Origin: Wenzhouxiangella sp. XN201
Lineage (GTDB): Bacteria; Pseudomonadota; Gammaproteobacteria; Xanthomonadales; Wenzhouxiangellaceae
Assembly (NCBI RefSeq): GCF_011008905.1
Contig: NZ_JAAIVI010000021.1
Span: 160,663 to 224,662 of the forward strand
Length of the DNA: 64,000 bases
Reading direction: 5' to 3'
Shown here: piece after piece, positions 2,506-63,174 of the stretch
Layout of the letters: every line of letters begins with the position of its first letter
Position numbering within the stretch: the stretch's first letter is position 1
Position numbers and translations under genes: made by a program
The notes under the pieces: generated by a model
Told to the model about the DNA's origin: nothing
Databases searched by the model: none
The model's input: only the letters and a program-made list of their open reading frames with translations

Positions 2506-3468
2506 TCAGTCTGAGTCGGGCAGGTGGGCAGGCTCGGCCTTGCAGCCGACTTGTGCTCGCCTCAGTAAGGGTTGGGCACGAGCCGACAAATCGGCATCTT
2601 CGACCAGAGTCTGGAGTATCCCGGCAGCTTCGCAAGGGTTGCCTGAGTCCATCAAGGTCACCGCCAGGTTGAACCGGCCTGGTCCGTGATCGGGCCGCAA
2701 TTCAAGCAATTGTCGGTAAGCGTCTGATGCGTTCTGGTAGTGACCGGCGGTGTAGGCTGTATTGCCCAGCCCGAGCCAGGCGATTGGCTCTTCCGGCCAG
2801 CGTTTCAGGGTCTGGTTCCAGACCCGCGATGCCAGTTCGCTATCGGCGGTGGCTTCGAAATCGGCCGCCGCAGTCAACCAGCGCTGCCGATCAGGATTGG
2901 CAGGCCATTTTCCCGGTTCGATGGCCGCCACGGCCCAGCGCCCGGCCCGCTCCCAGCGGCTGAACCAGCGTCGTGCACTCATTGACAGTTCCCGTTCAGT
3001 GCCCGAGCGCAGCAGTATGCGGTTGCGATCAACGTCATAACCGACCACGACGGCATAGTGCCAGACCGGCCTTCCCGGCAACCCCTGGTTTTCCAGCACC
3101 AGCACCGGCCGGCCGGCCGAGACCTCGGCCAGCACATCGTGCAATTGCCCCGACAAGCGGTAGGCGAGACGCCCATGAGTGCGGATTGCCGCCATCATCT
3201 CGGCCTGAAGGCTGCCCCTGCGGCCCGGCACGTATACGCGCTCGACCAGGGATTGGTAGTCGACGGTCGAGCCACCGTGTTCGAGCACGGTAGCCAGTGC
3301 CGCCGGTCCGCAGTGGTACTCGGTTTGGGGATGAAACGGGACGCCCGCCAGGTTGGCGCGGTCGGGCAGTCCGTCGAGTTCGTCGGCCAGCCGCAGCCCG
3401 GCGCAGCCGGATAGGGCGGCGATCAGTGTGAGAAAAACGGCGAGCCGCACAAGGCGGCCCGCCGTCAT
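2506..3468 (-). CDS. C39-like cysteine peptidase lipoprotein with TPRs (PA2778 family)
   Basis: 320 residues starting with a lipoprotein signal (lipobox LSGC). Residues about 35-170 form a papain-like C39 domain: VPFHPQTEYHCGPAALA contains the catalytic Cys, and VWHYAVVVGYD carries the His. C39 domains usually cut double-glycine leaders, but this stand-alone lipoprotein type (PA2778 in Pseudomonas) has no defined substrate. The C-terminal 110 residues are TPR-like helices (WLGLGNTAYTAGHYQNASDAY). It lies 17 bases downstream of the PA2779-family gene at 3486-3869, the pairing seen in other gammaproteobacteria, so the two form an operon. Confidence 0.87.
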   Translation of the reverse strand: MTAGRLVRLAVFLTLIAALSGCAGLRLADELDGLPDRANLAGVPFHPQTEYHCGPAALATVLEHGGSTVDYQSLVERVYVPGRRGSLQAEMMAAIRTHGRLAYRLSGQLHDVLAEVSAGRPVLVLENQGLPGRPVWHYAVVVGYDVDRNRILLRSGTERELSMSARRWFSRWERAGRWAVAAIEPGKWPANPDRQRWLTAAADFEATADSELASRVWNQTLKRWPEEPIAWLGLGNTAYTAGHYQNASDAYRQLLELRPDHGPGRFNLAVTLMDSGNPCEAAGILQTLVEDADLSARAQPLLRRAQVGCKAEPAHLPDSD

Positions 3469-3869: not shown

Positions 3870-4044
3870 CTCCTGTTCGCTGGATGGCTTGTCGGATCAG
3901 ACCCCGGATCAGGGCCGCTCCTCGCTGGAATATAGCATAGCCGCCGGTTCGGCTCAGCCGGCCTGACGGAGCCGCCCTGATGATCCCATCTATAGTGATC
4001 GATCTTCAGACCCGGTGACTGATCATCATTGAAAGTGACCTGGG

Positions 4045-7000
4045 TCAGCGCTTGGCAAAAGACGAGACTACCTTCAGAATATCTCGCTCGACCAGATCGG
4101 ATAATGGTTTGCCTGGAGAGAGCTGATCCAGGTTGTCGCTCCGGGCATGCTGACCGGGGTGCAGGCCGTACCAGCCATTCTTGCCGGCTTCCTTGGCCGC
4201 GTACAGGGCACGGTCGGCCAGATCAGCGCTGAGCTCCCAGCTGTTTGGCTCTGTCGCTGATGCAACGATCGGCCAGGGTGCGTAGCCGACGCTGCAGGTT
4301 ACGCTGAGATCGTCACCGTCATCGGTATGTAACGGCACTTCAGCAACTGCTCGACAGATGCGCTCGGCAAGGTCAGCGCCCATCGCGGGCCCGACATCGT
4401 TGACCACCAGCAGAAATTCCTCTCCACCCCAGCGAACGAGGATATCGCGCTGCCTGCAGAAGTTGTCCAGTCGTCGGGCAAACGCAACCAGTACCTGGTC
4501 GCCCACGGCATGCCCGCGCCGGTCGTTGATCTGCTTGAAGTCGTCAATATCGATCATCAGGAACAGAAGCCGCGGACGTGAGCGCCGATCCTCCCCGCGC
4601 TGCTGTTTTTCCACCCAGTAGAGAAAGTCGCGCCGGTTGGACAGGCCTGTCAATGGATCGCGCCGAGTTGCACGGTCCAGCCTTCGGTTGCTGCGATGCA
4701 GTTTCTCGTTGAGGTTTTCCAGCTCCGCCGTGCGCTTGGCGACCTGTCGATGCAGAATGTTGACCTGTCTGCGCTTGTTATGCATGTTCTGGCGTACCCG
4801 CCAGACGATCAAGGCGAGCAGCATTATCAGCAGTAGCCCGTAAAACACATAGGCCGCCGGATGACGCCACCAGGGCGGTACCAACACCATGGTCAACATG
4901 CGCTGGTTCCCAAATTTTCCATCCCGGCCGGCTGCTTCGATGCGAAGCCGATAGCTGCCCGGGGCCAGGTAATTGATGGAAAATTCCGCTTGGGCGCCGT
5001 TGACTTGCACCCAGTCGTCATGCAGGCCGTCTACCCGGTAGCGCAGTCGCGCAGCACTGGGTGCATTGAAATCCAGCGCAACCATGCGCAGCGAGAAGAT
5101 ACGTTGGCGATGATCCAGGCGGAGTTCGCTAGCATAGGGCAAGGACGCATCGAGCCCGGCGAATGGTTCCAGCAAGCCGACGTCGCGATGCGCTACGGTG
5201 ATCCCGTCAATGACCGGCCACGCCGGGGGGCTGTCGAATGAGAAGGCCGAGCTGTCGACGGAATCGACCCCGGCTACGCCGCCAAAATACAGTGATCCGT
5301 CATCGTCCTTCCACGCCGCCCCGGCATTGAACTCCTGGTTGATCAGCCCATCCCGGCGGCCCACTTGCTGCACCTGATCGCTCTGGGTGTCGACCACGCC
5401 CAGGCCGTTGTTGGTGCTCATCCAAAGACGCCCCTCGCGATCCGGGAGGATGCGATAGATAACATTGTTCGGCAGGCCATCGGCCTCTGTGACCCGGCGC
5501 TGCACTTCGCCGCTACGATCAAGCTGCAAGAGGCCGCCACCGAAAGTGCCCAGCCAGATCTGGTCGTCATCGACATGAATCGCCCAGATTGATTCACTGG
5601 CCTGCTCGCGCGAACCGGAAAAGAAATGCTCGATCTCGCCGCCAGGGCTGAACCGGAATACCCCGTCTTCATTGGTGCCGACCCAGATGTTTCCGCGCTC
5701 GTCGATCTGCAGTGTTGTCAGGAAGCGCTGGCGCAATGCCTTCGGCACCAACTCGGGGCGCAACCGGCCGTCGGCAAAGACGGCCAGACCCGCGCGGGTA
5801 GTGATCCAGAGGTGACCTTCGTGTTCAGCCAGGTCGGTGATGCGCTGATCGGGCAAGTCAGCCGACACGACGGGAGACGGCGCATCAGGTGGCTGCCAAC
5901 GCCACAGGCCCTGGTGGGTGCCCAGCCAGTAGGCCTTGCCGGGTTCGTCGGTGGCGAGAACGCGAACGGGGACGCCGGCAAGTGCCGGCAGCTGTCGCCA
6001 TTCGTCATCGCCCGCCGCCTGGACAAAAAGCCCGCTGTCGGTGCCGAGCAAGCCGCGATTGTCATCGCGCCGGATCGCGCGAACACTGGCCGATGGCCAT
6101 TGGACCGGGTTGAGCGAGGCGGAACGGCCGCCGGCCAGGACGGTTTCGGACATCGGCAGGACTCGATGCAGACCATCGGTATAAGTGCCGATCCAGAGCA
6201 CTCCGGAACTGTCACGATAGAGTTTCAATACCGCGCTGTCGCCGATATCGATTCGCCAGCGTGAATACTGCAATGGCCAATCTGGATGCCATTCGATCAC
6301 GCCGCCCTTGCTGTCGCCGATCAGCAAGCGGCCGTCGGCTTCCGCATACAGCGTCGAAACCCGGGCTTCGAGCGCATCCGAACGGGTCAGGGCCGAGACC
6401 ACCGAAACACCGTCCGCCCCGATGCGCACCAGCTTGCCCCGTCCCGTCGCCAACCACGCCGTGCCGTCCGGCGCCTGCGTCAATGCCACACACACGGCTG
6501 CTTCCGGTAAGTCCGGGCGCAGCGTGCGACCGTCGCTGAAGTCGAGCCGGCAACGCCGGTCCGCTACCAGCCAGTCAGCCCCATCGGGCCTGACGAGCCC
6601 GATCAGGCCATCCCGGGAAATCAGGTTGCTGACGCTGCCGTCGGCCAGATCGATGCGGTCGACACCGGCTGCCGTAGCCACCACGGCAGATTGTCCCGAT
6701 GGCAATACACTCAGGCCGGTCACCCGGGCATGAGAAAGCCCCTGTTCCGGCGCGAATCGCCAGCGCTCCAGGCTGGCCAGATCGATCACCTCGACGCCGG
6801 CGTCGTTGCTGCCCATCCATAGCCGCTCATGTGGATCGAAAGCCAGCACGTCCATCGTGGAACTGGCCAGGCTCTCGGGATCACCCGGCCGGCGACGCAG
6901 CACATCGAAGCGGTGACCGTCGAAACGGTGCAACCCTTCCTGTGTGCCGAACCACAACAGCCCGTTGGAATCCTCGGCCAGGCTGATCACGCTCGACTGC

Positions 7001-50273: not shown

Positions 50274-50717
50274 CCGCCCGATCGGGCAAACCCCGCCAAC
50301 GTACCGATTTGCGCCCGCGGGCAGTTTTGGGCAGTATGGCCTCAGTGAGGGAGTAGGAACGGCATGGGGTGCCATTCGGTCAGTCAGAATCTCGAATCAA
50401 ACCACGCGGCCACCCCGCGACCGCACAGTATCGCTTCGCCGCTCTCCCGCCACGCCGTAGACCCTACGCTGCCAGCGAATCGTGCTATGTGGCCAACCCA
50501 CCGCCTAGCGCGCTATGTGAACCTTTTGCCATATAACTCCGCCGATTTCGCGAGCGCTTCGGGCAAGAAGTTTCCTGGTAATCCATATCAGAACCGGAGA
50601 ATGCATGACGTTCAGGTGAGTTGGACACGGTCCGCGAATTCTGTACAGGTTAGTCAGCTAAGAGTGGCTTTGCATTCTGAACGCCAGTTCCACCATCTAT
50701 TTGTTAATTAGCGCTCC
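50274..50717. other. Left edge of accessory region, no supported gene
   Basis: 444 bases without a credible gene. The first 60 bases hold a leader-type repeat (see separate entry). From about 50,480 the sequence becomes more AT-rich and changes composition from the flanking ThDP gene. An open frame at 50364-50711 has no ribosome site, signal or recognisable domain. Sequence GAGTTGGACACGGTCC (about 50618-50633) resembles insertion-sequence ends, but no element follows. Confidence 0.5.
50304..50336. repeat. Leader repeat, copy 1 (diverged)
   Basis: CCGATTTGCGCCCGCGG then gcaGTTTTGGGCAG. The same element, with one or two changes, occurs at 55924 and 59148 upstream of the duplicated gene pair. 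Here no gene follows within 380 bases. Confidence 0.6.
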
Positions 50718-51644
50718 ATGTTGAACTTGTATCTTGACCAAAACGTTCTGGGTCTTCTTGCGGAGGGGAGGATAATCCTGAAGCCCAAAGTGGACGTGAG
50801 ATGGGTGTTCTCGAACGAACACCTTACGGAAGTTGCAAGAGGTGATACCAAAGAAATTCTGGATGTGCTGCGTACTCTGAAAGCGCAAAGATTGCTGCTT
50901 AAACGAGATGAGGAGGGCAGGATCACAGAGCAGTGGTTCATCGAAGAATATGCTGATCCTGGGAAATTATATTCAGAGTTTCGACAGAATCCTCCGGCTG
51001 TTGATCCTGCCATGTTTGAAGGACTTATAGCAAAGATATTTGGGTCTCAAGATCCGAATGTCGCGGAAGCATTCCCCGGTGATATGGCGAAGCAAGTTCG
51101 CGAGCATCTAAAGGAAATTCCGCGGTTGGAAGATATTTTTGGTTCCAGCTTGGAGGACCTAATCAGGGACGCTGGCGAAGACGCCCTTGAGAAGCTTGCA
51201 GGGACGCAGCCGTTGGAGAATAGGCGAAAGCCGCTTGGATTTGACCGCGGCCAAGCTTCAAATTTCGCAGATGCGAGCAATCCCTTACAAGCACTGTGGG
51301 AGCATGCAAACAAGTATTCTCCGTCGCCTATTTCTGCAGATCAGTTCTTTGGCTTCGACCCGCCCGACAAGAGACTTTTCGGCTATGAGAAATGGCCAGT
51401 CTTCCTGGGCATTTCTACGTGCTACTCCATACTGAACGCAATCGGATTTAGGCCCGATGCAGGCCTTGCGCGTACCAATAGAGTCCCAGCGAATATGAGT
51501 GATGCACATCATGTCGCTTATGCTGCGTTTTGCGATGCGCTATTTAGCGAGGACTCTCGAATGTGCGAGAAGGCCTTGGCCATATACAGGTACCGGCAAA
51601 TCGGAACTGGAGTAGTAGATGTTAGCAAGCGTGTGGATGGCTAA
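50718..51644 (+). CDS. PIN-like nuclease-type protein of unknown function
   Basis: 308 residues, starting MLNLYLDQNVLGLLAEG. A leading Asp (D7) in a LYLDQN strand and a C-terminal SDAHHVAYAAFCDALFSED with several acids, then YRYRQIGTGVVDV, fit a PIN-like metal-dependent nuclease fold; the middle (about 70-200) is helical. Such stand-alone PIN-like proteins are often found among toxin or defence genes, but none is proven here. AT-rich codon use contrasts with the host genes. It ends inside an attC-like site, the typical layout of an integron cassette. Confidence 0.55.
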   Translation: MLNLYLDQNVLGLLAEGRIILKPKVDVRWVFSNEHLTEVARGDTKEILDVLRTLKAQRLLLKRDEEGRITEQWFIEEYADPGKLYSEFRQNPPAVDPAMFEGLIAKIFGSQDPNVAEAFPGDMAKQVREHLKEIPRLEDIFGSSLEDLIRDAGEDALEKLAGTQPLENRRKPLGFDRGQASNFADASNPLQALWEHANKYSPSPISADQFFGFDPPDKRLFGYEKWPVFLGISTCYSILNAIGFRPDAGLARTNRVPANMSDAHHVAYAAFCDALFSEDSRMCEKALAIYRYRQIGTGVVDVSKRVDG

Positions 51645-51738
51645 CACATCGCTGCAGGTGACGTTTGACCCGTCGGCTACTTTTGCTGCCGCAGAAGCAG
51701 GCGACGCCTTAAACGCATCTGAGCTCAGACGTTAGGTT
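51641..51738 (+). other. attC-like site 1
   Basis: Begins CTAACACATCGCTGCAG and ends CTGAGCTCAGACGTTAGGT; the reverse complement of the right end (CTAACGTCTGAGCTCAG) pairs imperfectly with the left. Core AAC/GTT triplets are in place. The next gene starts five bases later. Confidence 0.55.
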
Positions 51739-51742
51739 TGAA

Positions 51743-52252
51743 ATGGCCCGCGCATACTATCTCATCGGCCTGTTCTTGCTTTTATGTGGCGGCTTGATTT
51801 ATGTCTGCTTCCGGCCGGATTCACTTTTGCTTTTTTCGTGGGCTGAGCAACGTGGGCTTATGCCAAGCATCAATGAACTTCGGAGAGCGTCTTCGCCTCT
51901 TGGGCCATATTTAGATAACTGGGTTGTATACTCTCTCCCAAACGGGCTTTGGGTTATGGCATTCGCATCGTTCGCCCTTGGGATAACCGGGGATACTGGG
52001 CGGGATGCTAGGCTCGCGCTTGTGTGGACGAGTGCTCTCTGTTTCGTTGGCATTGGTTCAGAGGCACTACAGTATATAGAAAGATTGCCAGGGACATTCG
52101 ATTGGAAGGACACTGTTGCTTATGTGCTTCCGTTGATTGCGCTCATCACATATCTTCGGGGAGTAAGCTATGCGAAAAAGTTGGATTTCCGACCACATTG
52201 CACTATTCGCGCTTTTCATGTTCTTTCTACTTCTGGCCGCAGGGAGCAGTGA
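51743..52252 (+). CDS. VanZ-like membrane protein
   Basis: 169 residues with about four hydrophobic helices, the first LIGLFLLLCGGLIYVCF. The segment GIGSEALQYIERLPGTFDWKD (here up to WKDTVAYVLPLIAL) resembles the VanZ-like motif E..Q....PGT.D..D. VanZ of enterococci gives low-level teicoplanin resistance; most relatives are uncharacterised. The gene starts right after attC-like site 1 and its last 83 bases overlap the next gene in another frame. Confidence 0.6.
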   Translation: MARAYYLIGLFLLLCGGLIYVCFRPDSLLLFSWAEQRGLMPSINELRRASSPLGPYLDNWVVYSLPNGLWVMAFASFALGITGDTGRDARLALVWTSALCFVGIGSEALQYIERLPGTFDWKDTVAYVLPLIALITYLRGVSYAKKLDFRPHCTIRAFHVLSTSGRREQ

Positions 52253-52564: not shown

Positions 52565-52650
52565 ACCTAACAAACCGCTCAAGTTCGTTCCGGGCCTAGC
52601 GGCTCTTCACCGGACGCACTTACACGCACCGCTTAGCTAAATCGTTAAGT
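52565..52650 (+). other. attC-like site 2 (best example)
   Basis: Left end ACCTAAC matches the R'' consensus RYYYAAC, right end GTTAAGT matches GTTRRRY. The inner left arm GCTCAAG and the complement of the inner right arm (GCTAAG) differ by one extra base, the extrahelical base typical of attC sites. Length 86 bases between two cassette genes. Confidence 0.75.
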
Positions 52651-52683: not shown

Positions 52684-53436
52684 ATGTCTGAAAGAATGAC
52701 GAAAAAGCTAGAGGGCGATGGCCCTGTTGAAAAGCAGATTATCCTTCTGAAATTGACTGAATCCTTAGAGCAGGCACCTGACTTTGGTGAAAAGCCAATA
52801 ATGAATCCCGGTTCACCGCAACGGCAATGGTTGTCTCGTGTTGGCGCACTTTTCTCCAGGCTGGGACTTGATAGACAAGTACAGTATAGAGCGGCTTACC
52901 AAACACTGCTTCAGTATTGGAAACCCGCAATCGTTCAGATTCAGGGGCAAGTTCTTGATGCTATCGAAGAGCTTAAGCTTGAGCTTGAATTAGATGGCAG
53001 AAGTGAAATCGGAAATGCGTACGAGCCTGGAGATTTCTATAGTTTTTTTGCTGACTTAAAGTCCATCGTAAGTGATGCTAAGAATGATCTGTTGATAATC
53101 GATCCATATTTTAACGGCGAAGCATTTGATGCCTACATTTCAGAGGCCGGTGCATCGATTAATGTTCGTATCCTGGCAGACCGTTATTCGAAAGATCTAA
53201 AAGTTTATATCAATAAGCACATGGCTCAATACGGAAGTTCAATTAAAGTTAAAAGAAGCAAAGAGCTTCATGACAGAATTGTCTTCATAGATGGCGACGT
53301 ATCCTGGATTATGGGCGGGTCAATCAAGGATGCGGGAAAAAAGGCTACATACTTAATTCCGTTAGCTACTCCGATAACGGAGGCTAAGTATGCTATTTAC
53401 AGTGAGATATGGGAAAGGGCCACCGAAGTTGAGTAA
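52684..53436 (+). CDS. Phospholipase D-like protein (single HKD-type motif)
   Basis: 250 residues. N-terminal half helical (LLQYWKPAIVQIQGQVLDAI, a coiled segment). From about 120, a PLD-like fold: YSFFADLKSIVSDAKNDLLI, IDPYFNGEAFDAYI, INVRILADRYSKDLKVYI, and the partial HKD motif LHDRIVFIDGDVSWIMGGS. Only one motif, with HD in place of HxK, so it may act as a dimer or be non-catalytic. PLD-like single-motif proteins include nucleases and defence factors. AT-rich; cassette gene between two attC-like sites. Confidence 0.65.
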   Translation: MSERMTKKLEGDGPVEKQIILLKLTESLEQAPDFGEKPIMNPGSPQRQWLSRVGALFSRLGLDRQVQYRAAYQTLLQYWKPAIVQIQGQVLDAIEELKLELELDGRSEIGNAYEPGDFYSFFADLKSIVSDAKNDLLIIDPYFNGEAFDAYISEAGASINVRILADRYSKDLKVYINKHMAQYGSSIKVKRSKELHDRIVFIDGDVSWIMGGSIKDAGKKATYLIPLATPITEAKYAIYSEIWERATEVE

Positions 53437-53438
53437 GC

Positions 53439-53509
53439 GCTTAACGAGTAGATCCACTTGAGAGAATACTCGCTGCGCTCGCATTTTCTCGGTGTACTAA
53501 GCGTTGGGC
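53439..53509 (+). other. attC-like site 3
   Basis: Left end GCTTAAC (R'' consensus) and right end GTTGGGC (R' consensus) 71 bases apart. The interior GAGAATACTCGCTGCG and CGCATTTTCTC can form the terminal hairpin. It begins three bases after the stop of the PLD-like gene. Confidence 0.65.
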
Positions 53510-53783: not shown

Positions 53784-53841
53784 TTATGGCTACATTCAGC
53801 CTATTGGCGCTAGCTAACAGCAGCTCCAACTCGTAAGCGCC

Positions 53842-54631
53842 GAAACCAGGACACCCGAAACCAGGACGGCCGAAACCAGGAGAAACCAGAGAAACCAGGA
53901 CACCCACGATCCCCCCGGCTGAATCAGCCTCTCCGTGGTTTGCGGGACATCGGAATCTGCTGAGATTGAGCACGAGGTGGAAGGGGCCCTGGGGTGTCAG
54001 CGCTGTACCGGCCATCTGGAGCCCATTTTGAGCACGGGCTGGAGTCCGGTCCACGTCATTCAACCGAGGAGAAACCAGGACACCCACGATCTTCCCGGCT
54101 GAATCAGCCTCTCCGTGGTTTGCGGGGCATCGGAATCTGCTGAAAATGAGCACGAGGTGGACGGGATCCTGGCGCGTTGAGCGCAGTACCGGCCATCTGG
54201 AGCCCATTTTGAGCACGGGCTGGCGTCCGGTCCATGTCGTTCAACCGGAAATTCAGATCAGGATGGGATTACCAAGGTATTGACTGTTCTCGTAGCTTTT
54301 TGAGGGCGAATTCCCCGGACACGCCCTTCATCCAACGCTGGCCCAGATCGGCGGCCTTAAGCATCAGCGCCTCGGCGGAACCGATTGCCCGGTAGTAGCG
54401 GCTCTCGGTGCCTTGAACTCGCCGTATCCATTCTCGGGGATGGTTTGCCGCCAGAGAAACCAGGACACCCACGATCTTGCCGGCTGAATCAGCCTCTCCG
54501 TGGTTTGCGGGTCATCGGAATCTGCTGAGAATGAGCACGAGGTGGACGGGACCCTGGGGTGTCGAGCGCTGTGCCGGCCATCTGGAGCCGATTTTGAGCA
54601 CGGGCTGGCGTCCGGTCCACGTCGTTCAACC
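53842..54631. repeat. Tandem repeat array flanking the REP-type transposase
   Basis: First a short stretch of GAAACCAGG units at about 15-base spacing (53842, 53857, 53872, with a variant at 53882). Then three copies of a 175-base unit: 53891-54065, 54071-54246 and 54456-54631, each from GAAACCAGGACACCCACGA through GGCTGAATCAGCC and CCATCTGGAGCC to TCAACC. Copies 2 and 3 are each followed by sequence from the transposase 3' end, so the repeat plus gene end is duplicated. Small palindromes (GGCTGAATCAGCC) could be REP-like hairpins recognised by the transposase. No gene is supported in 53784-54268. Confidence 0.75.
54269..54443 (-). pseudogene. Duplicated 3' fragment of the REP-associated transposase
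   Basis: Encodes the C-terminal about 58 residues of the intact transposase at 54654: NHPREWIRRVQGTESRYYRA, IGSAEALMLKAADLGQRW, MKGVSGEFALKKLREQ, ending SIPW instead of PIPW. The upstream part is missing and is replaced by repeat sequence, so it is a remnant of the tandem duplication. Confidence 0.8.
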
Positions 54632-54653
54632 GGAAGTTCAGGTGAGGATGGGG

Positions 54654-55676
54654 CTACCAAGGTATAGGCTGTTCTCGTAGCTTCTTGAGGGCGAATTCCC
54701 CGGACACGCCCTTCATCCAACGCTGGCCAAGATCGGCGGCCTTAAGCATCAGCGCCTCGGCGGAACCGATTGCCCGGTAGTAGCGGCTCTCGGTGCCTTG
54801 AACTCGCCGTATCCATTCTCGGGGATGGTTCGCGACATTCCAAAGACCTTCAGGTGGCGCTTCTCCTGTGGCGGATAGCTTGCCGCGTTTCTCAGGATGT
54901 GCCTGGAGTCCTGTCCAGTGCACGAGCTCTATGTAGCTGGATTCGGTCAGATCAGAGAGAGCGTCGGCATCCAGTCCGGCGACCGGTTTGAGCGCCTGGT
55001 CCTCAGAACTAAGGCCCAGCGCCTTGCCGATTGCGGATCGAGTCGACTTGATTCGGTATCGCACGGAGGTATGCGCGGAGTCGCGAAGCGCCTCACACAT
55101 GCCGGCCCGAACCGGATTGAGATCCACGTAAGCCATGCAAGACAGAACAGCCTGTTCGTCCAGCAATGCCTGGCACTTGAAACGACCTTCCCAGAACCGG
55201 CCCGTGCACCCGTCCTCGCGATTGGCCATCCGGGCGATTGGCTCATTGAGTGCCCGCATGAACCAGCTGATCGATCCCAGCCGCTGGCGAATCACGTCAA
55301 GGCGCTCGGTATTGCTGAGGAGGGCGAGGGTCGCCCGCTCGACGCAGCCGGGATCGTCGCGGTTGCTGATCGATCCTGGAAAAATGGCCAGCCAGCGTTC
55401 TGCGACTTCCCGATCCGACCATTCCCAGGCATATCGCGGGTCGCTGCGGAGAACGATATGGAAATGATTCGACATGACGGCGTATGCATACACTGAAACG
55501 GCGAAACTGTCGGCCAGCTGGAAGATTCTTTCCTCGATCCACTGACGCCGATGCTCGAAGTCTTTTCCGGATGCAACATCGAAACCACACAGAAACGCGC
55601 GACGGACGCAACGGCTCACGCAATGGAAAAAGCCTGGCTCGTCATCGCTGACTAATTGACTTCGTGGATAGGTCAT
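54654..55676 (-). CDS. REP-associated tyrosine transposase (Y1/HUH family)
   Basis: 340 residues. N-terminal SDDEPGFFHCVSRCVRRAFL, then VYAYAVMSNHFHIVLRSD with the HUH metal motif (NHFHI) and, later, VLSCMAYVDLNPVRAGMCEA, characteristic of RAYT-type (TnpA_REP) single-strand transposases. The Y1 tyrosine is probably in the YVDLNP helix region. These enzymes are domesticated relatives of IS200/IS605 transposases that act on palindromic REP sequences. The C-terminal 60 residues are duplicated downstream (54269-54443), together with repeat copies. It lies inside the cassette region. Confidence 0.92.
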   Translation of the reverse strand: MTYPRSQLVSDDEPGFFHCVSRCVRRAFLCGFDVASGKDFEHRRQWIEERIFQLADSFAVSVYAYAVMSNHFHIVLRSDPRYAWEWSDREVAERWLAIFPGSISNRDDPGCVERATLALLSNTERLDVIRQRLGSISWFMRALNEPIARMANREDGCTGRFWEGRFKCQALLDEQAVLSCMAYVDLNPVRAGMCEALRDSAHTSVRYRIKSTRSAIGKALGLSSEDQALKPVAGLDADALSDLTESSYIELVHWTGLQAHPEKRGKLSATGEAPPEGLWNVANHPREWIRRVQGTESRYYRAIGSAEALMLKAADLGQRWMKGVSGEFALKKLREQPIPW

Positions 55677-55762: not shown

Positions 55763-55880
55763 TCCCGGATTCATCTCCCGGATTCATCTCCGGATTCATC
55801 CCGGATTCATCGGATTCACTTGCCGGATTCACAATCCCTCCCGTATTCACCCCGGATTCCCCGGATTCCTCTCGGATTCC
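55763..55880. repeat. Degenerate tandem GGATTC repeat
   Basis: Nine GGATTC units at roughly 10-29-base intervals (55767, 55780, 55792, 55803, 55812, 55824, 55853, 55863, 55874), most within CCCGGATTCAT or CCGGATTCC. Between 55677 and 55985 no gene is supported; open frames on the minus strand are low-complexity. Confidence 0.7.
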
Positions 55881-55923
55881 TGGAGGGGGTAACGGGACAA
55901 TTAAATGAGGTCCCGCACGGGCG

Positions 55924-55956
55924 CCGATTTGCCCCCGCGGCGAGTTTTGGGCAGAC
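55924..55956 (+). repeat. Leader repeat, copy 2
   Basis: CCGATTTGCCCCCGCGG then cgaGTTTTGGGCAG, followed by a gaggag ribosome site and the frameshifted gene at 55986. Nearly identical to the copy at 59148. Confidence 0.7.
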
Positions 55957-55985
55957 TTCGTGTGCCGATAAGTGAGGAGACCCGG

Positions 55986-56520
55986 ATGAAGAGCATTTTT
56001 GTTGCGTTGGCCGTGATTCCCCTTTTTCATGGTGCAAGCAGACGTCGATTGTCAGTCTTTGTTCGAAAAGCATCTCGAATCCGATATGGAGCTTTCCTAT
56101 CAGGAGTTCGATCAAACCATGGATAGCGGCTTCCGTGTTCTGGGAGCGAAAGGATGCAACGAAGAGGCTGCGGACCTCATTGAGGAGTATATTCGGGTCA
56201 ATTCAGCAGAGCAGCGGTCACTTCGGTGGCATATTGCCCAGCTTCGCGCCATGCACGGTGCGAACGCGGAAGCAGTCCGATACGCCAAATCCTCGCTTCT
56301 CGAGCAGGAGGATTTTTCAGAGCGTGCTTTGCGATGGAATGATTATGTTCTGGCAACCATCGCTTTTCTTGAGGGAGATCGGGAAGGCTTGGTTCGACAT
56401 CGAGACAAGGTCGCCGAGGGCGTCGGTGAACATCCTGGTAACGAACTGAATTTGAAGCTGCTGGATGCCTTGATCGAGAACTTTGACACTGACTACGCGA
56501 CAGCCTTGGAAACGTTGTAA
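55986..56520 (+). pseudogene. Frameshifted copy of the helical secreted protein
   Basis: Near-identical to the intact gene at 59210-59743: over the 163 residues that can be aligned only about five differ. The first codons, MKSIFVALAVIPLF, run into a CCCCTTTTT tract that has one more base than the copy at 59210, so the signal peptide frame runs out of phase with the body. The body (56029-56520, MVQADVDCQSLFEK onward) remains open and would lack a complete signal peptide if started there. It is either a recent pseudogene or a length-variable switch. Confidence 0.75.
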
Positions 56521-56530
56521 GGGCGTGGTC

Positions 56531-56574
56531 CACCGGACGCGGCTAACGCACGCCGCTTAGCTCCATAGTTAGGG
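56531..56574 (+). other. attC-like right half-site
   Basis: CACCGGACGCGGCTAACGCACG then CCGCTTAGCTCCATAGTTAGGG. It matches the right half of attC-like site 2 (CACCGGACGC, CCGCTTAGCTAAATCGTTAAG). A full left partner was not found in the 3' end of the preceding gene. Confidence 0.45.
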
Positions 56575-56606
56575 TTAAGCCAAACGTTTTGCAAAAGGAG
56601 ATTGAC

Positions 56607-56723
56607 ATGCACAGATATTTCATGCTTGTGCATTTCCTCCTTTTCTCGGTAGGTGCCGGACCAGGCGGCCTGCTCGGTCCCGGTATGGGAAACCAGGATC
56701 CTTATTATTATCAGTTCTCATGA
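56607..56723 (+). CDS. 38-residue peptide with hydrophobic N-terminus
   Basis: ATG at 56607 preceded by a strong ribosome site (aaaaggag). Translation is MHRYFMLVHFLLFSVGAG, then a Gly/Pro-rich stretch (PGGLLGPGMGNQDP) and YYYQFS. Too short for domain assignment, but the ribosome site and its isolated location between a half attC site and the next gene make it a credible small cassette gene. Confidence 0.45.
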   Translation: MHRYFMLVHFLLFSVGAGPGGLLGPGMGNQDPYYYQFS

Positions 56724-56759
56724 ATCACCCAAACAATACTTGCTGTGGCGAATTTTTGA

Positions 56760-57095
56760 ATGATTAACACCAACAAGCGACCGTTTCTCCTAGCCTCGTT
56801 ATTTGCTGGGGTCATTCTTTTTTTAGGTGGCTGCAATAACTTCGAAGGGGCTGGTATGGATGAGGAAGTGCAATCAGCTGAGAGCCTAGAAAGTCTTGAG
56901 GCAGAGGTCTTTGAATTGTATTCCTTGGCACCGTGTACGGACTCTCATGGGTATTGTAGCTTCCCGTTTTTAGTTGAACAGGTTGACGCTCTGACTGCGG
57001 GGTACTGTCTTGAGGGTGATTCTCAAGAAGCCCTTCGCATCTATACCTTGTTCAAACACTTTGAGGATCCGTCACCGCGACCACCGGAATGCTGA
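56760..57095 (+). CDS. Small lipoprotein, unknown function
   Basis: 111 residues. Signal peptide with lipobox LGGC (GVILFLGGCNNFEG) followed by an acidic region (EEVQSAESLESLEAEVFEL) and a cysteine-containing segment (LAPCTDSHGYCSFPF, GYCLEGDSQEALRIY), ending PPEC. No family recognised. AT-rich; its 3' flank leads to an attC-like left half-site. Confidence 0.6.
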   Translation: MINTNKRPFLLASLFAGVILFLGGCNNFEGAGMDEEVQSAESLESLEAEVFELYSLAPCTDSHGYCSFPFLVEQVDALTAGYCLEGDSQEALRIYTLFKHFEDPSPRPPEC

Positions 57096-57219
57096 TAACA
57101 AAAAAGCGGAGCAACCAGGAAACACATTATTTGAAGGGCTCGTTTGATCTGGCTATTGCCCTCAATAGATGAATTTTCCGCTCGAAGAACCAGGGCACAA
57201 AGCATTATCATTTCGTCTC

Positions 57220-57301
57220 ACCTAACAAAGCCTTCAACCGGACGCGGGGCTACTTGCGGGCCAGCAAAGCCGAGCTGGTTCCTGGGCCGCGCTGGTTAAG
57301 G
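57220..57301 (+). other. attC-like site 4 (left half clear)
   Basis: ACCTAAC with AAAGCCTTCAACCGGACGC matches an attC left half; the right end reads GCGCTGGTTAAGG, only a weak R' (GTTRRRY fails at the last base). Pairing between the inner arms is poor, so this may be a hybrid or degraded site. Confidence 0.45.
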
Positions 57302-57328
57302 CAAACTTTATTCGCGCGGGAACGGAAG

Positions 57329-57976
57329 ATGCACGTCGTATGCTTTGATATTGACGGGACGCTGGTTGCCTCTGCAGGTTTCGACGGCGAACTGTACGCG
57401 GAAGCGATTCGGGACGTGCTTGGCGTGGAGATCGATACAGACTGGTCTCAATACGAGAACGTTACGGATAGTGGCATTCTGGAAGAGATTCTCGAGAAGC
57501 ACTCGTCTCCCGATCAGCGAGGGCGTATGGCACAACAGGTTCACACCAGTTTTGTCGGACTCACCAAGCGCTACGTGGCGGAGAACCCTAGTCTCATACG
57601 AGAGATCCCGGGTGCACTGGCGTTGGTGGGGGAGCTGCGGAAGTCACCCGAAGTGCGCGTCTGTGTAGCGACGGGCGGCTGGGCGGAGACGGCAGCGCTC
57701 AAGCTCCGCGCTATCGGTCTCGAACCAAACGACCTTGCCATGGCAACTGGCTCCGACGCATTGAGACGCACCGACATTATGCGGCTGGCTGAGTCGAGAG
57801 CGACGCAGGGAGTGGTAGCGAAGAGACGGACATACTTCGGCGACGGTGTGTGGGACCAGAGAGCGGCGAGTCAACTCGGCTATGATTTTGTGGCGGTTGG
57901 GGGTGGTGTGAACCATCATTTGGCCTTTCCGGACTTACAGGATCTCGAGTCGATCCTCTCGCAGTTGGGCGTATAG
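57329..57976 (+). CDS. HAD-family hydrolase (phosphatase-like)
   Basis: 215 residues from the ATG at 57329 (MHVVCFDIDGTLVASAG); the earlier in-frame ATG at 57254 lies in the attC-like site. Motif I DIDGT carries the nucleophilic Asp, motif II is VCVATGGWAETAALKLRAIG (T/S-type), and motif IV is YFGDGVWDQRAAS. Haloacid-dehalogenase fold phosphatases of this small class act on sugar phosphates or nucleotides; substrate unknown. GC content returns toward host level, so the cassette may differ in origin. Confidence 0.85.
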   Translation: MHVVCFDIDGTLVASAGFDGELYAEAIRDVLGVEIDTDWSQYENVTDSGILEEILEKHSSPDQRGRMAQQVHTSFVGLTKRYVAENPSLIREIPGALALVGELRKSPEVRVCVATGGWAETAALKLRAIGLEPNDLAMATGSDALRRTDIMRLAESRATQGVVAKRRTYFGDGVWDQRAASQLGYDFVAVGGGVNHHLAFPDLQDLESILSQLGV

Positions 57977-58123
57977 AAAATGCTCAAGCGGACTTGGATA
58001 TATGTCGTTGCCACGAACGGCGTGGCAGGAAGGTCAGCTTGTTCCTGGAACTTTGCCGAACCTCGAGGATCGGATCCTGGTGCGACAGGGCTTAATTATC
58101 CAAGTTCAATGGGAGAGTCTTCC

Positions 58124-58588
58124 ATGAAAGTATCACGCTACACTTTTGTCCTCTTCACCACCGTGCTTGCGACAGCAAGCGCAGCTGCCTGCGACTTGAA
58201 TACGGGCGAAAGAAGCCAGCACGTCTTTCTCTCATGGAACGGACAGACACTTCAGAATTGGATTGCGCCTGCCGGCGACATCCACCAGGTCGCTCTCCCC
58301 AACGGCTTCCATCTGGGGGTTGAGCTAGATGAGCCGCCACCGGACAAATATATTGAGTTGGCTGAACAATTCCAGCACGTTCCGGAAATCGTCGAGATAA
58401 ACCTATTTGAGCTGTCCGAGGATGAGCCCGAGCTTCTTTCCCGGACCTATGGGGGAACAAACTCTATCCAAGGATTCGGGGCCCGTGGAGGAGCGAACAG
58501 GGTAGAGCAACTTGGCGACCCCGGGATTAAGCTCACCCTGCTCAAGCCAGTTTGTATAGAGCCGTCCACCGTGCCAGTTGCTCGATGA
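58124..58588 (+). CDS. Small secreted protein, unknown function
   Basis: 154 residues from the ATG at 58124, supported by gggagag upstream. Signal peptide FVLFTTVLATASAAAC, whose final Cys could be a lipobox (SAAAC). The body is featureless: HVFLSWNGQTLQNWIAPAG, VEINLFELSEDEPELLSRTY. An earlier reading from 57980 overlaps gene-free sequence and lacks a signal. No family recognised. Confidence 0.55.
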   Translation: MKVSRYTFVLFTTVLATASAAACDLNTGERSQHVFLSWNGQTLQNWIAPAGDIHQVALPNGFHLGVELDEPPPDKYIELAEQFQHVPEIVEINLFELSEDEPELLSRTYGGTNSIQGFGARGGANRVEQLGDPGIKLTLLKPVCIEPSTVPVAR

Positions 58589-58708
58589 AGACTGACTAGC
58601 TGCTACAAGTACTCGCCAGCCTTTATCGGGGTAATCCGCGTTGTGCTTACGTGTGCTGCTTGGAAGTCCATTTCTAGATTTGACCAGCGGTAAAGGAGAT
58701 TATCAGTC

Positions 58709-59071
58709 ATGAGAAAAGTCCTTGTGGTAATTGCGCTTTGCTTTCCACCCCTGATTGCCGCCGGGGACTCGGATCAATTCCTGGTGAAAATGAAGGTTTT
58801 GGAAAATGGTGCCGAGCTGGCCACGCCAGAAATGATCGTTGAGAAAGGATCGGAAGCATCCATGAATATTTCTGGTGAACAGGCGCTAGTAGCCGTTGGC
58901 TTGATCGTGAACGGTCACAATGAGAATGAGGCCCATGTTGTGGCCGAGATTGAAACATCGGCTGATCGAATGTCTCCCGAGTTGCTGGTGAAGAAGGGAC
59001 AGTGGGCTTCAGTTTCAGTGGGAGAGCTCGAATTCCATATCCTGGTAGAAGATCACGCTGCTACTGAATAG
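58709..59071 (+). CDS. Small secreted protein, unknown function
   Basis: 120 residues with a strong ribosome site (aaaggag) before the ATG. Signal peptide MRKVLVVIALCFPPLIAAG, then a beta-rich domain (FLVKMKVLENGAELATPEM, ALVAVGLIVNGHNENEAHV, SVSVGELEFHILVED). It ends about 80 bases before the third leader repeat. No family recognised. Confidence 0.6.
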   Translation: MRKVLVVIALCFPPLIAAGDSDQFLVKMKVLENGAELATPEMIVEKGSEASMNISGEQALVAVGLIVNGHNENEAHVVAEIETSADRMSPELLVKKGQWASVSVGELEFHILVEDHAATE

Positions 59072-59147
59072 AATCTTAGCCGGCACGGTAGCGAGGCAAC
59101 AGATCGACCAGGCGGCCCGCATTGAGATTCGTCATTGGCGGTGGCTG

Positions 59148-59180
59148 CCGATTTGCCCCCGCGGCCGGTTTTGGGCAGAC
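59148..59180 (+). repeat. Leader repeat, copy 3
   Basis: CCGATTTGCCCCCGCGG then ccgGTTTTGGGCAG, followed by a gaggag ribosome site and the intact duplicated gene at 59210. TGCCC and GGGCA can pair as a short stem. It may be a conserved 5' leader or promoter segment. Confidence 0.7.
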
Positions 59181-59209
59181 TTCGTGTCTTGGCAATAGAG
59201 GAGACCTGG

Positions 59210-59743
59210 ATGAAGAGTATCTTGATTGTGCTGGCCGTGATTCCCTTTTCCATGGTGCAAGCAGACGTCGATTGTCAGTCTTTGTTCGAAAAGCATCTCG
59301 AATCCGATATGGAGCTTTCCTATCAGGAGTTCGATCAAACTATGGATAGCGGCTTCCGTGTTCTGGGAGCGAAAGGATGCAACGAAGAGGCTGCGGACCT
59401 CATTGAGGAGTATATTCGGGTCAATTCAGCAGAGCAGCGGTCACTTCGCTGGCATATTGCCCAGCTTCGCGCCATGCACGGTGCGAACGCGGAAGCAGTC
59501 CGATACGCCAAATCCTCGCTTCTCGACCAGGAAGATTTTTCAGAGCGAGCTTTGCGATGGAATGATTATGTTCTGGCAACCATCGCTTTTCTTGAGGGAG
59601 ATCGGAAAGGCTTGGTTCGGCACCGAGACAAGGTTGCCGAGGGCGTCGGTGAACATCCCGGGAACGAACTGAATTTGAAGCTCCTGGATGCCTTAATCGA
59701 GAACTTCGGCGCTGACTACGCAACAGCCCTGGAAGCGTTATAA
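59210..59743 (+). CDS. Secreted helical protein, intact copy of the duplicated gene
   Basis: 177 residues from the ATG at 59210. Signal peptide MKSILIVLAVIPFSMVQA, then a helical, TPR-like body (FDQTMDSGFRVLGAKGCNEE, AADLIEEYIRVNSAEQ, RWHIAQLRAMHGANAEAV, LNLKLLDALIENF). Function unknown. The paralogue 3.2 kb upstream differs at only about five residues but is frameshifted in the signal peptide. Similarity starts at the leader repeat and stops at the stop codon. Confidence 0.8.
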   Translation: MKSILIVLAVIPFSMVQADVDCQSLFEKHLESDMELSYQEFDQTMDSGFRVLGAKGCNEEAADLIEEYIRVNSAEQRSLRWHIAQLRAMHGANAEAVRYAKSSLLDQEDFSERALRWNDYVLATIAFLEGDRKGLVRHRDKVAEGVGEHPGNELNLKLLDALIENFGADYATALEAL

Positions 59744-61860: not shown

Positions 61861-63174
61861 ATGATGAGCAAGTACATCCGGCCCGCGCCCCTCGCTCTGG
61901 CAATTGCCAGTGCATTTGTCGCAGACAAGGTTCTCGCCCAGGAAGACCTGACCATTCAGGCCCCGCCGGGCGGGTCCGTCCAGATTCGTGACGCTGCCGG
62001 CAATGTGATTCATCTTCAGGTTGATGACAACGGTACGCTGATTCTGCCCGGCGTAAGTGGCCACGGCGAACAGGACACGGTGTTGTGCTTCGAGTCGACC
62101 AGCGGGGTCCTCGGACCCTGTTCGACGGATGCAATACAGGGGCCGACGGGTCCGACAGGTCCCCAGGGCGACACAGGACCGACCGGGCCCGCAGGGCCGC
62201 AGGGCGATACCGGGCCTGCAGGACCGCAGGGGCCGCAAGGTGATCCGGGGCCGACCGGCCCGCAAGGTGCGCAAGGTCTTCAAGGCGATCCCGGTCCTAC
62301 CGGTCCGCAGGGCGTGCAGGGCCCGCAGGGCGACACGGGACCACAAGGTGCGCAAGGTCCACAAGGCGATCCCGGTCCTACCGGTCCGCAGGGCCCGCAA
62401 GGCCCGCAGGGCGACACGGGACCCGTCGGCCCACAAGGTGCCCAGGGCCCACAGGGCATTCAGGGTGATACCGGGCCCCAGGGCGTGCAAGGTCCACAAG
62501 GCGATACGGGTCCAACGGGTCCGCAGGGAATTCAGGGGCCGCAAGGCCCACAAGGCGTTACTGGCCCACAAGGGCCCACGGGCGACACCGGCCCGGCTGG
62601 TGACAGCTACACCATTGGCACGGGCCTGGAAGAAGATGCCGGGTTGCTGACCGTGCAGCGAACCGGGTGTTCCGCCGGCCAGGTGCTGGAGTACGACGGA
62701 AGTGCGTGGTCGTGCAATGACCCATCTGGAGGCACCGGCTTTGATGTACTCATCAACGGCACCGCAATCAGTGATCCGACCTTGGACCTGGCTTTCCTGG
62801 GCTCAACCGGTACCAGCCAGGGCTTTCTGACGACCCAGAACTTCCGGGTGACGTTAGAGGGTGGTGCGATCAAGAGTGGTTTCTTGATGTTCGATGCGGC
62901 TGGCTGTACCGGGAATATGGCGGTCGATATCGAGACCGACGCTTTTTCGTCCGGTGACGTCTTCGCATCCGGTGGAAATCTCTATTACGTTCCGGACAAT
63001 CCGACCGAATATACCGATTTTCCCCAGCAGTCCTACCTGGACCCGGCTGATGGGCAATGCAAGGTCGACACAACGGCCTACGATGGTCTGCAGGCCATTT
63101 CCAACGATGCAGGTGTTACGGGATTCAGTTTCGCCGATCCCGACACGGCAGTGGTGACCTACCAGCGCAATTGA
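61861..63174 (+). CDS. Bacterial collagen-like protein
   Basis: 437 residues. Signal peptide ends at VLAQ; a short N-terminal domain ([33 protein letters not shown]) precedes an uninterrupted run of about 52 Gly-X-Y triplets (residues 94 to 249), dominated by GPQ, GPT and GDT. The C-terminal 190 residues are a globular domain ([57 protein letters not shown]). Predicted to form a triple helix outside the cell. The ribosome site aagga is nine bases before the ATG. Confidence 0.9.
62140..62607 (+). repeat. Collagen Gly-X-Y coding repeat
   Basis: About 52 nine-base Gly-X-Y codon triplets in tandem within the collagen-like gene. The third codon positions vary, so the repeat is selected at protein level; in the DNA, GGTCCGCAGGGC-like blocks recur. 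Confidence 0.85.

Follow-up and report, generated by a model that had tools for sequence, protein, structure and literature searches.

Paralogous genes with a putatively converted centre and a frameshift in a decayed integron cassette cluster of Wenzhouxiangella sp. XN201

Introduction

Clusters of attC sites that lack an integron integrase (CALINs) occur commonly in Xanthomonas genomes at a distance from the intI locus (PMC12444791). In the chromosomal-integron arrays of Vibrio, related cassettes are repeated within one genome, and the paralogous cassettes and attC sites there have been proposed to undergo gene conversion (PMC1382264). Here we describe a stretch of 64,000 nucleotides from Wenzhouxiangella sp. 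XN201 (hereafter the window, G000:C21:160663-224662, from a genome of 3.13 Mb in 22 contigs) that resembles both systems in part. Like a CALIN, it carries two clear attC sites 0.9 kb apart in a uniform orientation, short ORFs that start 6-40 bases past attC sites, and no integrase. It differs from a CALIN in that its right part is strongly decayed, with one attC site mutated, one halved and others lost, and in that a RAYT/REP-like island has been inserted in the cluster. The repetition of related cassettes recalls the Vibrio arrays, whereas the conversion-like tract of the window falls within the coding sequence of two decayed cassettes, next to a frameshift.

The explanation that we consider probable is that two genes of the window, copy 1 and copy 2, are paralogues of a cassette-borne family residing in a CALIN, which would have arisen by an old duplication, had their centre converted later and suffered a frameshift in copy 1. 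Such findings are ordinary in kind and leave the general understanding unchanged; they document an uncharacterised family of small exported TPR-like proteins with a patchy distribution, which integron cassettes carry in beta- and gammaproteobacteria.

Results and Discussion

The two copies and the genes between them

The segments 55923-56520 and 59147-59743 align in the same orientation over 598 columns with 37 substitutions and a single 1-base indel, their spacing being 3224 and, past the indel, 3223. In agreement with the original prediction, which had placed at 55986 and 59210 a pair of genes with a shared leader, about 97% protein identity and a likeness ending at the stop codon, the leader 55923-55963 matches its copy-2 counterpart in 39/41 positions, the proteins are identical in 158 of the 163 residues of the common open frame (96.9%), and the likeness halts at the TAA codon in both copies (Table 1). 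The figure of 97% holds for the protein overall and masks a strong mosaic, the first 100 bases being ~83% and the last 200 bases 92% identical. Four small genes had been announced between the copies; there are four clear ORFs (56760, 57329, 58124 and 58709) and, in addition, a possible 38-codon ORF at about 56608. A search of the whole genome returned exactly two members of the family, copy 1 with one in-frame TGA and copy 2 with none, and they are sisters in the family tree (support 100/99). They are thus probably lineage-specific paralogues of one gene family.

Table 1. Coordinates in the window of the attC sites, leader repeats, gene copies and intervening genes.
Feature	Position	Strand	Description
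Leader repeat copy A	50303..50334	+	Left edge of the cluster
attC site	51639..51737	+	49 bits
attC site	52565..52650	+	43 bits
attC-like site	53437..53509	+	Judged by eye; not found by the covariance model
Leader repeat copy B	55923..55963	+	Core GATTTGCCCCCGCGGCGAGTTTTGGGCAG; upstream of copy 1
Copy 1, start	55986..56126	+	ATG and signal-peptide codons, out of frame past the C4T5 tract; ~46-codon product
Copy 1, tract	56019..56028	+	CCCCTTTTTC, one base more than copy 2 (CCCTTTTCC)
Copy 1, mature-protein frame	56029..56520	+	Intact, 163 aa, ends at TAA
Putative homogenised tract	56029..56301	+	Differs from copy 2 by 2 synonymous changes alone; ascribed to gene conversion
Right half of an attC site	56529..56574	+	L'/R' side only, left half missing; starts 8 bases past the copy 1 stop
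Small lipoprotein-like gene	56760..57095	+	111 aa
Decayed attC site	57220..57313	+	17.6 bits; R' side mutated
HAD-like hydrolase gene	57329..57976	+	Starts 16 bases past the decayed attC site
Small gene	58124..58588	+	154 aa; signal-peptide-like start; no family
Small gene	58709..59071	+	120 aa; signal-peptide-like start; no family
Leader repeat copy C	59147..59187	+	Upstream of copy 2
Copy 2	59210..59743	+	Intact gene, 177 aa; signal peptide, then all-helical TPR-like domain; invariant Cys22 and Cys57

The encoded protein and its family

The product of copy 2 has a signal peptide, followed by a domain that is modelled with high confidence as all-helical (AlphaFold mean pLDDT 93.5). It is like the TPR (tetratricopeptide) repeat proteins in that the model is confidently all-helical and the best solved-structure matches in Foldseek are TPR domains, with E-values of at least 0.059, at which membership of the TPR family is not established; unlike these proteins, it matches nothing in Pfam, NCBIfam or PHROGs. 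The defence library likewise gave no match for the duplicated gene. The invariant cysteines are compatible with a periplasmic disulphide, and the product of copy 2 is probably a periplasmic TPR-like protein.

Named genomes yielded nineteen relatives, most of them dispersed over gamma- and betaproteobacteria, and 5/369 genomes of the class, this one included, carry the family. In Niveibacterium sp. 24ML (L026) the family gene, which runs to 665, is the single ORF between attC sites at 26-115 and 665-754; in Arsukibacterium sp. MJ3 (L035) it is again the single ORF between two attC sites, at 3368-3451 (a weak site) and 4000-4080. The downstream attC site starts at the stop codon in Niveibacterium and within a few bases of it in Arsukibacterium. 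Elsewhere in the genus, a second genome encodes a more distantly related member, ~600 bases ahead of an attC cluster. Direct flanking by attC sites was seen in 2/19 homologous loci, a count made with a model that may miss other attC types. These arrangements indicate that the family probably travels as a one-gene integron cassette. A family attC site that begins at the stop codon, and that decayed differently in each copy, would also explain the sharp 3' edge of the likeness between the copies. A phage or plasmid origin was dropped, as no relatives of the duplicated gene were found in viral contigs or plasmids and the leader is absent from viral contigs.

The integron cassette setting

The attC sites were sought by a geometry-based scan and then with a covariance model trained on ten sites from the Niveibacterium and Arsukibacterium loci together with two sites of the window; other attC types may escape such a model. 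Contig C15 of the same genome holds eleven attC sites between 106 and 6091, none of them in the training set and all therefore independent of it, to which the two clear sites of the window are 73-83% identical. These two sites lie close together in the same orientation, accompanied by the decayed third site, and ORFs start shortly past attC sites at 51743, 52684 and 57329. The sole match in the genome above the cut-off of the integron integrase model TIGR02249 lies on contig C18 and not on C21, the contig of the window. Judged by its attC sites, the window contains a CALIN of the same attC type as the chromosomal integron of the genome, since the sites of the window resemble the C15 array. The integrase (C18:20746-21690) scores 454 bits against a cut-off of 265 and has an intact open frame; it is located 433 bases from the end of its contig and reads away from that end, and C15 starts in cassettes whose orientation is as expected if C18 and C15 adjoin. 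The C18 integrase and the C15 array (G000:C15:1-6100, with at least eleven attC sites; L041, L087) are thus probably one integron split by the assembly.

The boundaries of the duplication had been called cassette-like, a description that turns out to be literally right: the surroundings are a decayed integron cassette cluster, and in other genomes relatives of the gene occur as true cassettes. Past the stop of copy 1, the half-site matches the right half of the C15 attC sites with a score of 57, against at most 29 in 500 shuffles. Downstream of copy 2, neither the covariance model nor similarity to the attC sites of the genome revealed any attC site. With half an attC site, copy 1 is a remnant and not a working cassette, which would consist of an ORF and a complete attC site; copy 2, with an ORF and no recognisable attC site, is no cassette either. 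Copy 1 would have lost the left half of its attC site and copy 2 all of it, so that neither should now be excisable. The locus offers a clear example of cassettes apparently locked into the chromosome through the loss of attC halves.

If the two copies were instead old dispersed paralogues unrelated to integrons, with attC sites as coincidental neighbours, the lack of an attC site at copy 2 would be expected, and such a reading accords with the leader repeats, which are found at the start of the copies and also beside unrelated genes, and with the position of most relatives outside detectable attC arrays. We hold it to be improbable, given that a half attC site begins 8 bases past the stop of copy 1, that the family occurs in cassette form in two other genera and that the orientation of the cluster is uniform. 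The decayed-cassette origin therefore remains our preferred reading, and the duplication itself may have been mediated by IntI. A duplication made purely by the integrase is not demonstrated, because copy 2 lacks a recognisable attC site and because the shared segment opens at its 5' end with the leader repeat and not with an R' site.

The cassette cluster is divided by a REP-associated tyrosine transposase-like gene (54654-55676, minus strand; 42 bits, below the family cut-off of 80) and by a second partial copy of its 3' end with surrounding repeats (53830-54760). A phospholipase-D-like gene of the cluster (52684-53436) matches the candidate phage-defence family PDC-S05 (3.5e-18).

Mosaic divergence of the copies

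The nucleotide identity between the copies varies strongly by segment: 95% in the leader (41 bases), 64% in the 22 bases before the start codon, 82% in the signal-peptide codons, 98.6% in 56031-56319 and 92% in 56320-56520. The longest run with at most one substitution spans 198 columns (p = 1e-4) and that with at most two spans 276 columns (p < 5e-5). The synonymous difference amounts to 2/59.5 sites (3%) in the centre, 56029-56301, to 13/51 sites (25%) in the 3' part and to 3/7.3 sites (~41%) in the signal-peptide codons; centre and 3' part differ with a Fisher p of 7e-4, calculated for segment boundaries that were picked after seeing the data. When synonymous changes alone were considered and placed at random over the synonymous sites, the run test gave p = 0.0026 for the two-change run, 0.038 for the one-change run, which is weak, and 0.33 for the change-free run, which is not significant. 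Constraint does not explain the near-identical centre, because both main parts are conserved to an equal degree within the family: compared with copy 2, the relatives show 49% identity in the centre and 52% in the end. At the DNA level, the centre is less similar than the end to Wenzhouxiangella sediminis, a member of the same genus.

Since the synonymous divergence outside the centre reaches 25-41%, the duplication looks old with only its centre refreshed, and the recent duplication put forward in the original prediction is not borne out. A clean and recent duplication, or a homologous exchange of the whole 598-base segment, would produce the high overall identity, the common leader and the sharp 3' edge, but it is at odds with the synonymous divergence of the 3' part and of the signal-peptide codons and with the poorly conserved bases ahead of the start codon; being largely contradicted by the mosaic already, it appears very unlikely to us. 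Past the indel, the copies differ by 5 nonsynonymous and 15 synonymous changes against 381 and 111 sites, respectively (p = 1e-6), a ratio indicating that they diverged under purifying selection. The pattern as a whole suggests that the duplication is old and that gene conversion homogenised its centre afterwards. Thus, we propose that the copies would have diverged under purifying selection after the old duplication, that an ectopic gene conversion may then have homogenised ~270-290 bases of the mature-protein part, and that a 1-base insertion beside the converted tract would have uncoupled the copy 1 signal peptide from the frame of the mature protein. The case shows how old divergence and subsequent homogenisation can together yield a mosaic that passes for a recent duplication.

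The frameshift in copy 1

The 1-base indel sits at the C-run around 56019-56022, where copy 1 reads ATTCCCCTTTTTCATGG and copy 2 reads ATTCCCTTTTCCATGG, that is, CCCC TTTTT C against CCC TTTT CC before ATGG. The ATG of copy 1 at 55986 is preceded by GAGGAG, and the extra base leaves it out of frame with the remainder, while the mature-protein frame is open from the ATG at 56029, before which there is no evident Shine-Dalgarno sequence. The tract difference and the shifted signal-peptide frame had both been claimed earlier, and at the level of the assembly they read exactly so.

The further idea of a slip-strand switch of secretion fares otherwise. Phase-variable genes usually carry tracts far longer than C4T5. 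No long simple-sequence tract is present in or before copy 1, whose C4T5 tract is shorter than other runs in the window; the longest of these have a length of 7 and all lie elsewhere. It is true that the indel falls within the signal peptide and that the ATG at 56029 could begin an unexported form, so that changes in tract length would turn the secretion of copy 1 on and off; with so short a tract, and with no Shine-Dalgarno sequence before that ATG, we regard this switch as extremely unlikely.

An error of the assembly or consensus within the repeat deserves more weight. The frameshift, and perhaps part of the near-identical centre too, would then be artefactual and the real copy 1 intact, which would agree with the mark of purifying selection that copy 1 bears together with copy 2 and with the indel lying on the border of the near-identical tract, a place at which reads from either copy could be confused. 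The tract, however, is short, and a C/T difference accompanies the extra base, unlike a simple long-homopolymer error; moreover, flanking differences tell the copies apart and mismatch-free runs between them do not exceed 107 bases. We consider such an error somewhat unlikely as the source of the frameshift. Because selection constrained both copies during most of their separate history, the most likely cause is either a frameshift that inactivated copy 1 recently or a sequence error left uncorrected. With the frameshift taken as real, copy 1 would have lost its function and is most likely a young pseudogene, with copy 2 as the working gene.

The leader element

Three places in the genome carry the leader core, all of them within this cluster and in the same orientation; such a threefold match was reached by 0/100 shuffles of the window. 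The core is also present once in a related genome (L044 9605-9643), where the 85 surrounding bases are 84% identical to those of the copy at 50303. The consensus of ~30 bases has the form GATTTGC.CCCGCGG...GTTTTGGGCAG, and all four occurrences are followed by a purine-rich Shine-Dalgarno-like stretch and an ATG ~30 bases downstream. A structured RNA was considered for the leader and is not supported by the folding test, which gave no signal (z 0.3 to 0.9); Rfam had no matches in the window, and the promoter and terminator scans showed nothing beyond chance. The leader might represent a dispersed expression module, giving promoterless cassette genes an upstream signal and a patch of homology for cassette recombination, a proposal that we regard as very doubtful.

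Three further observations concern the surroundings of the copies. A scrap of a LysR-type regulator gene at 59076-59128 is 81% identical to a gene of the relative (L044 10749-11672), which sits 1.2 kb from the leader element of that genome. Between the transposase-like gene and copy 1 there is a cluster of CGGATTC direct repeats (55766-55890), and a collagen-like protein with many Gly-Pro-Thr and Gly-Pro-Gln repeats is encoded at 61861-63174.
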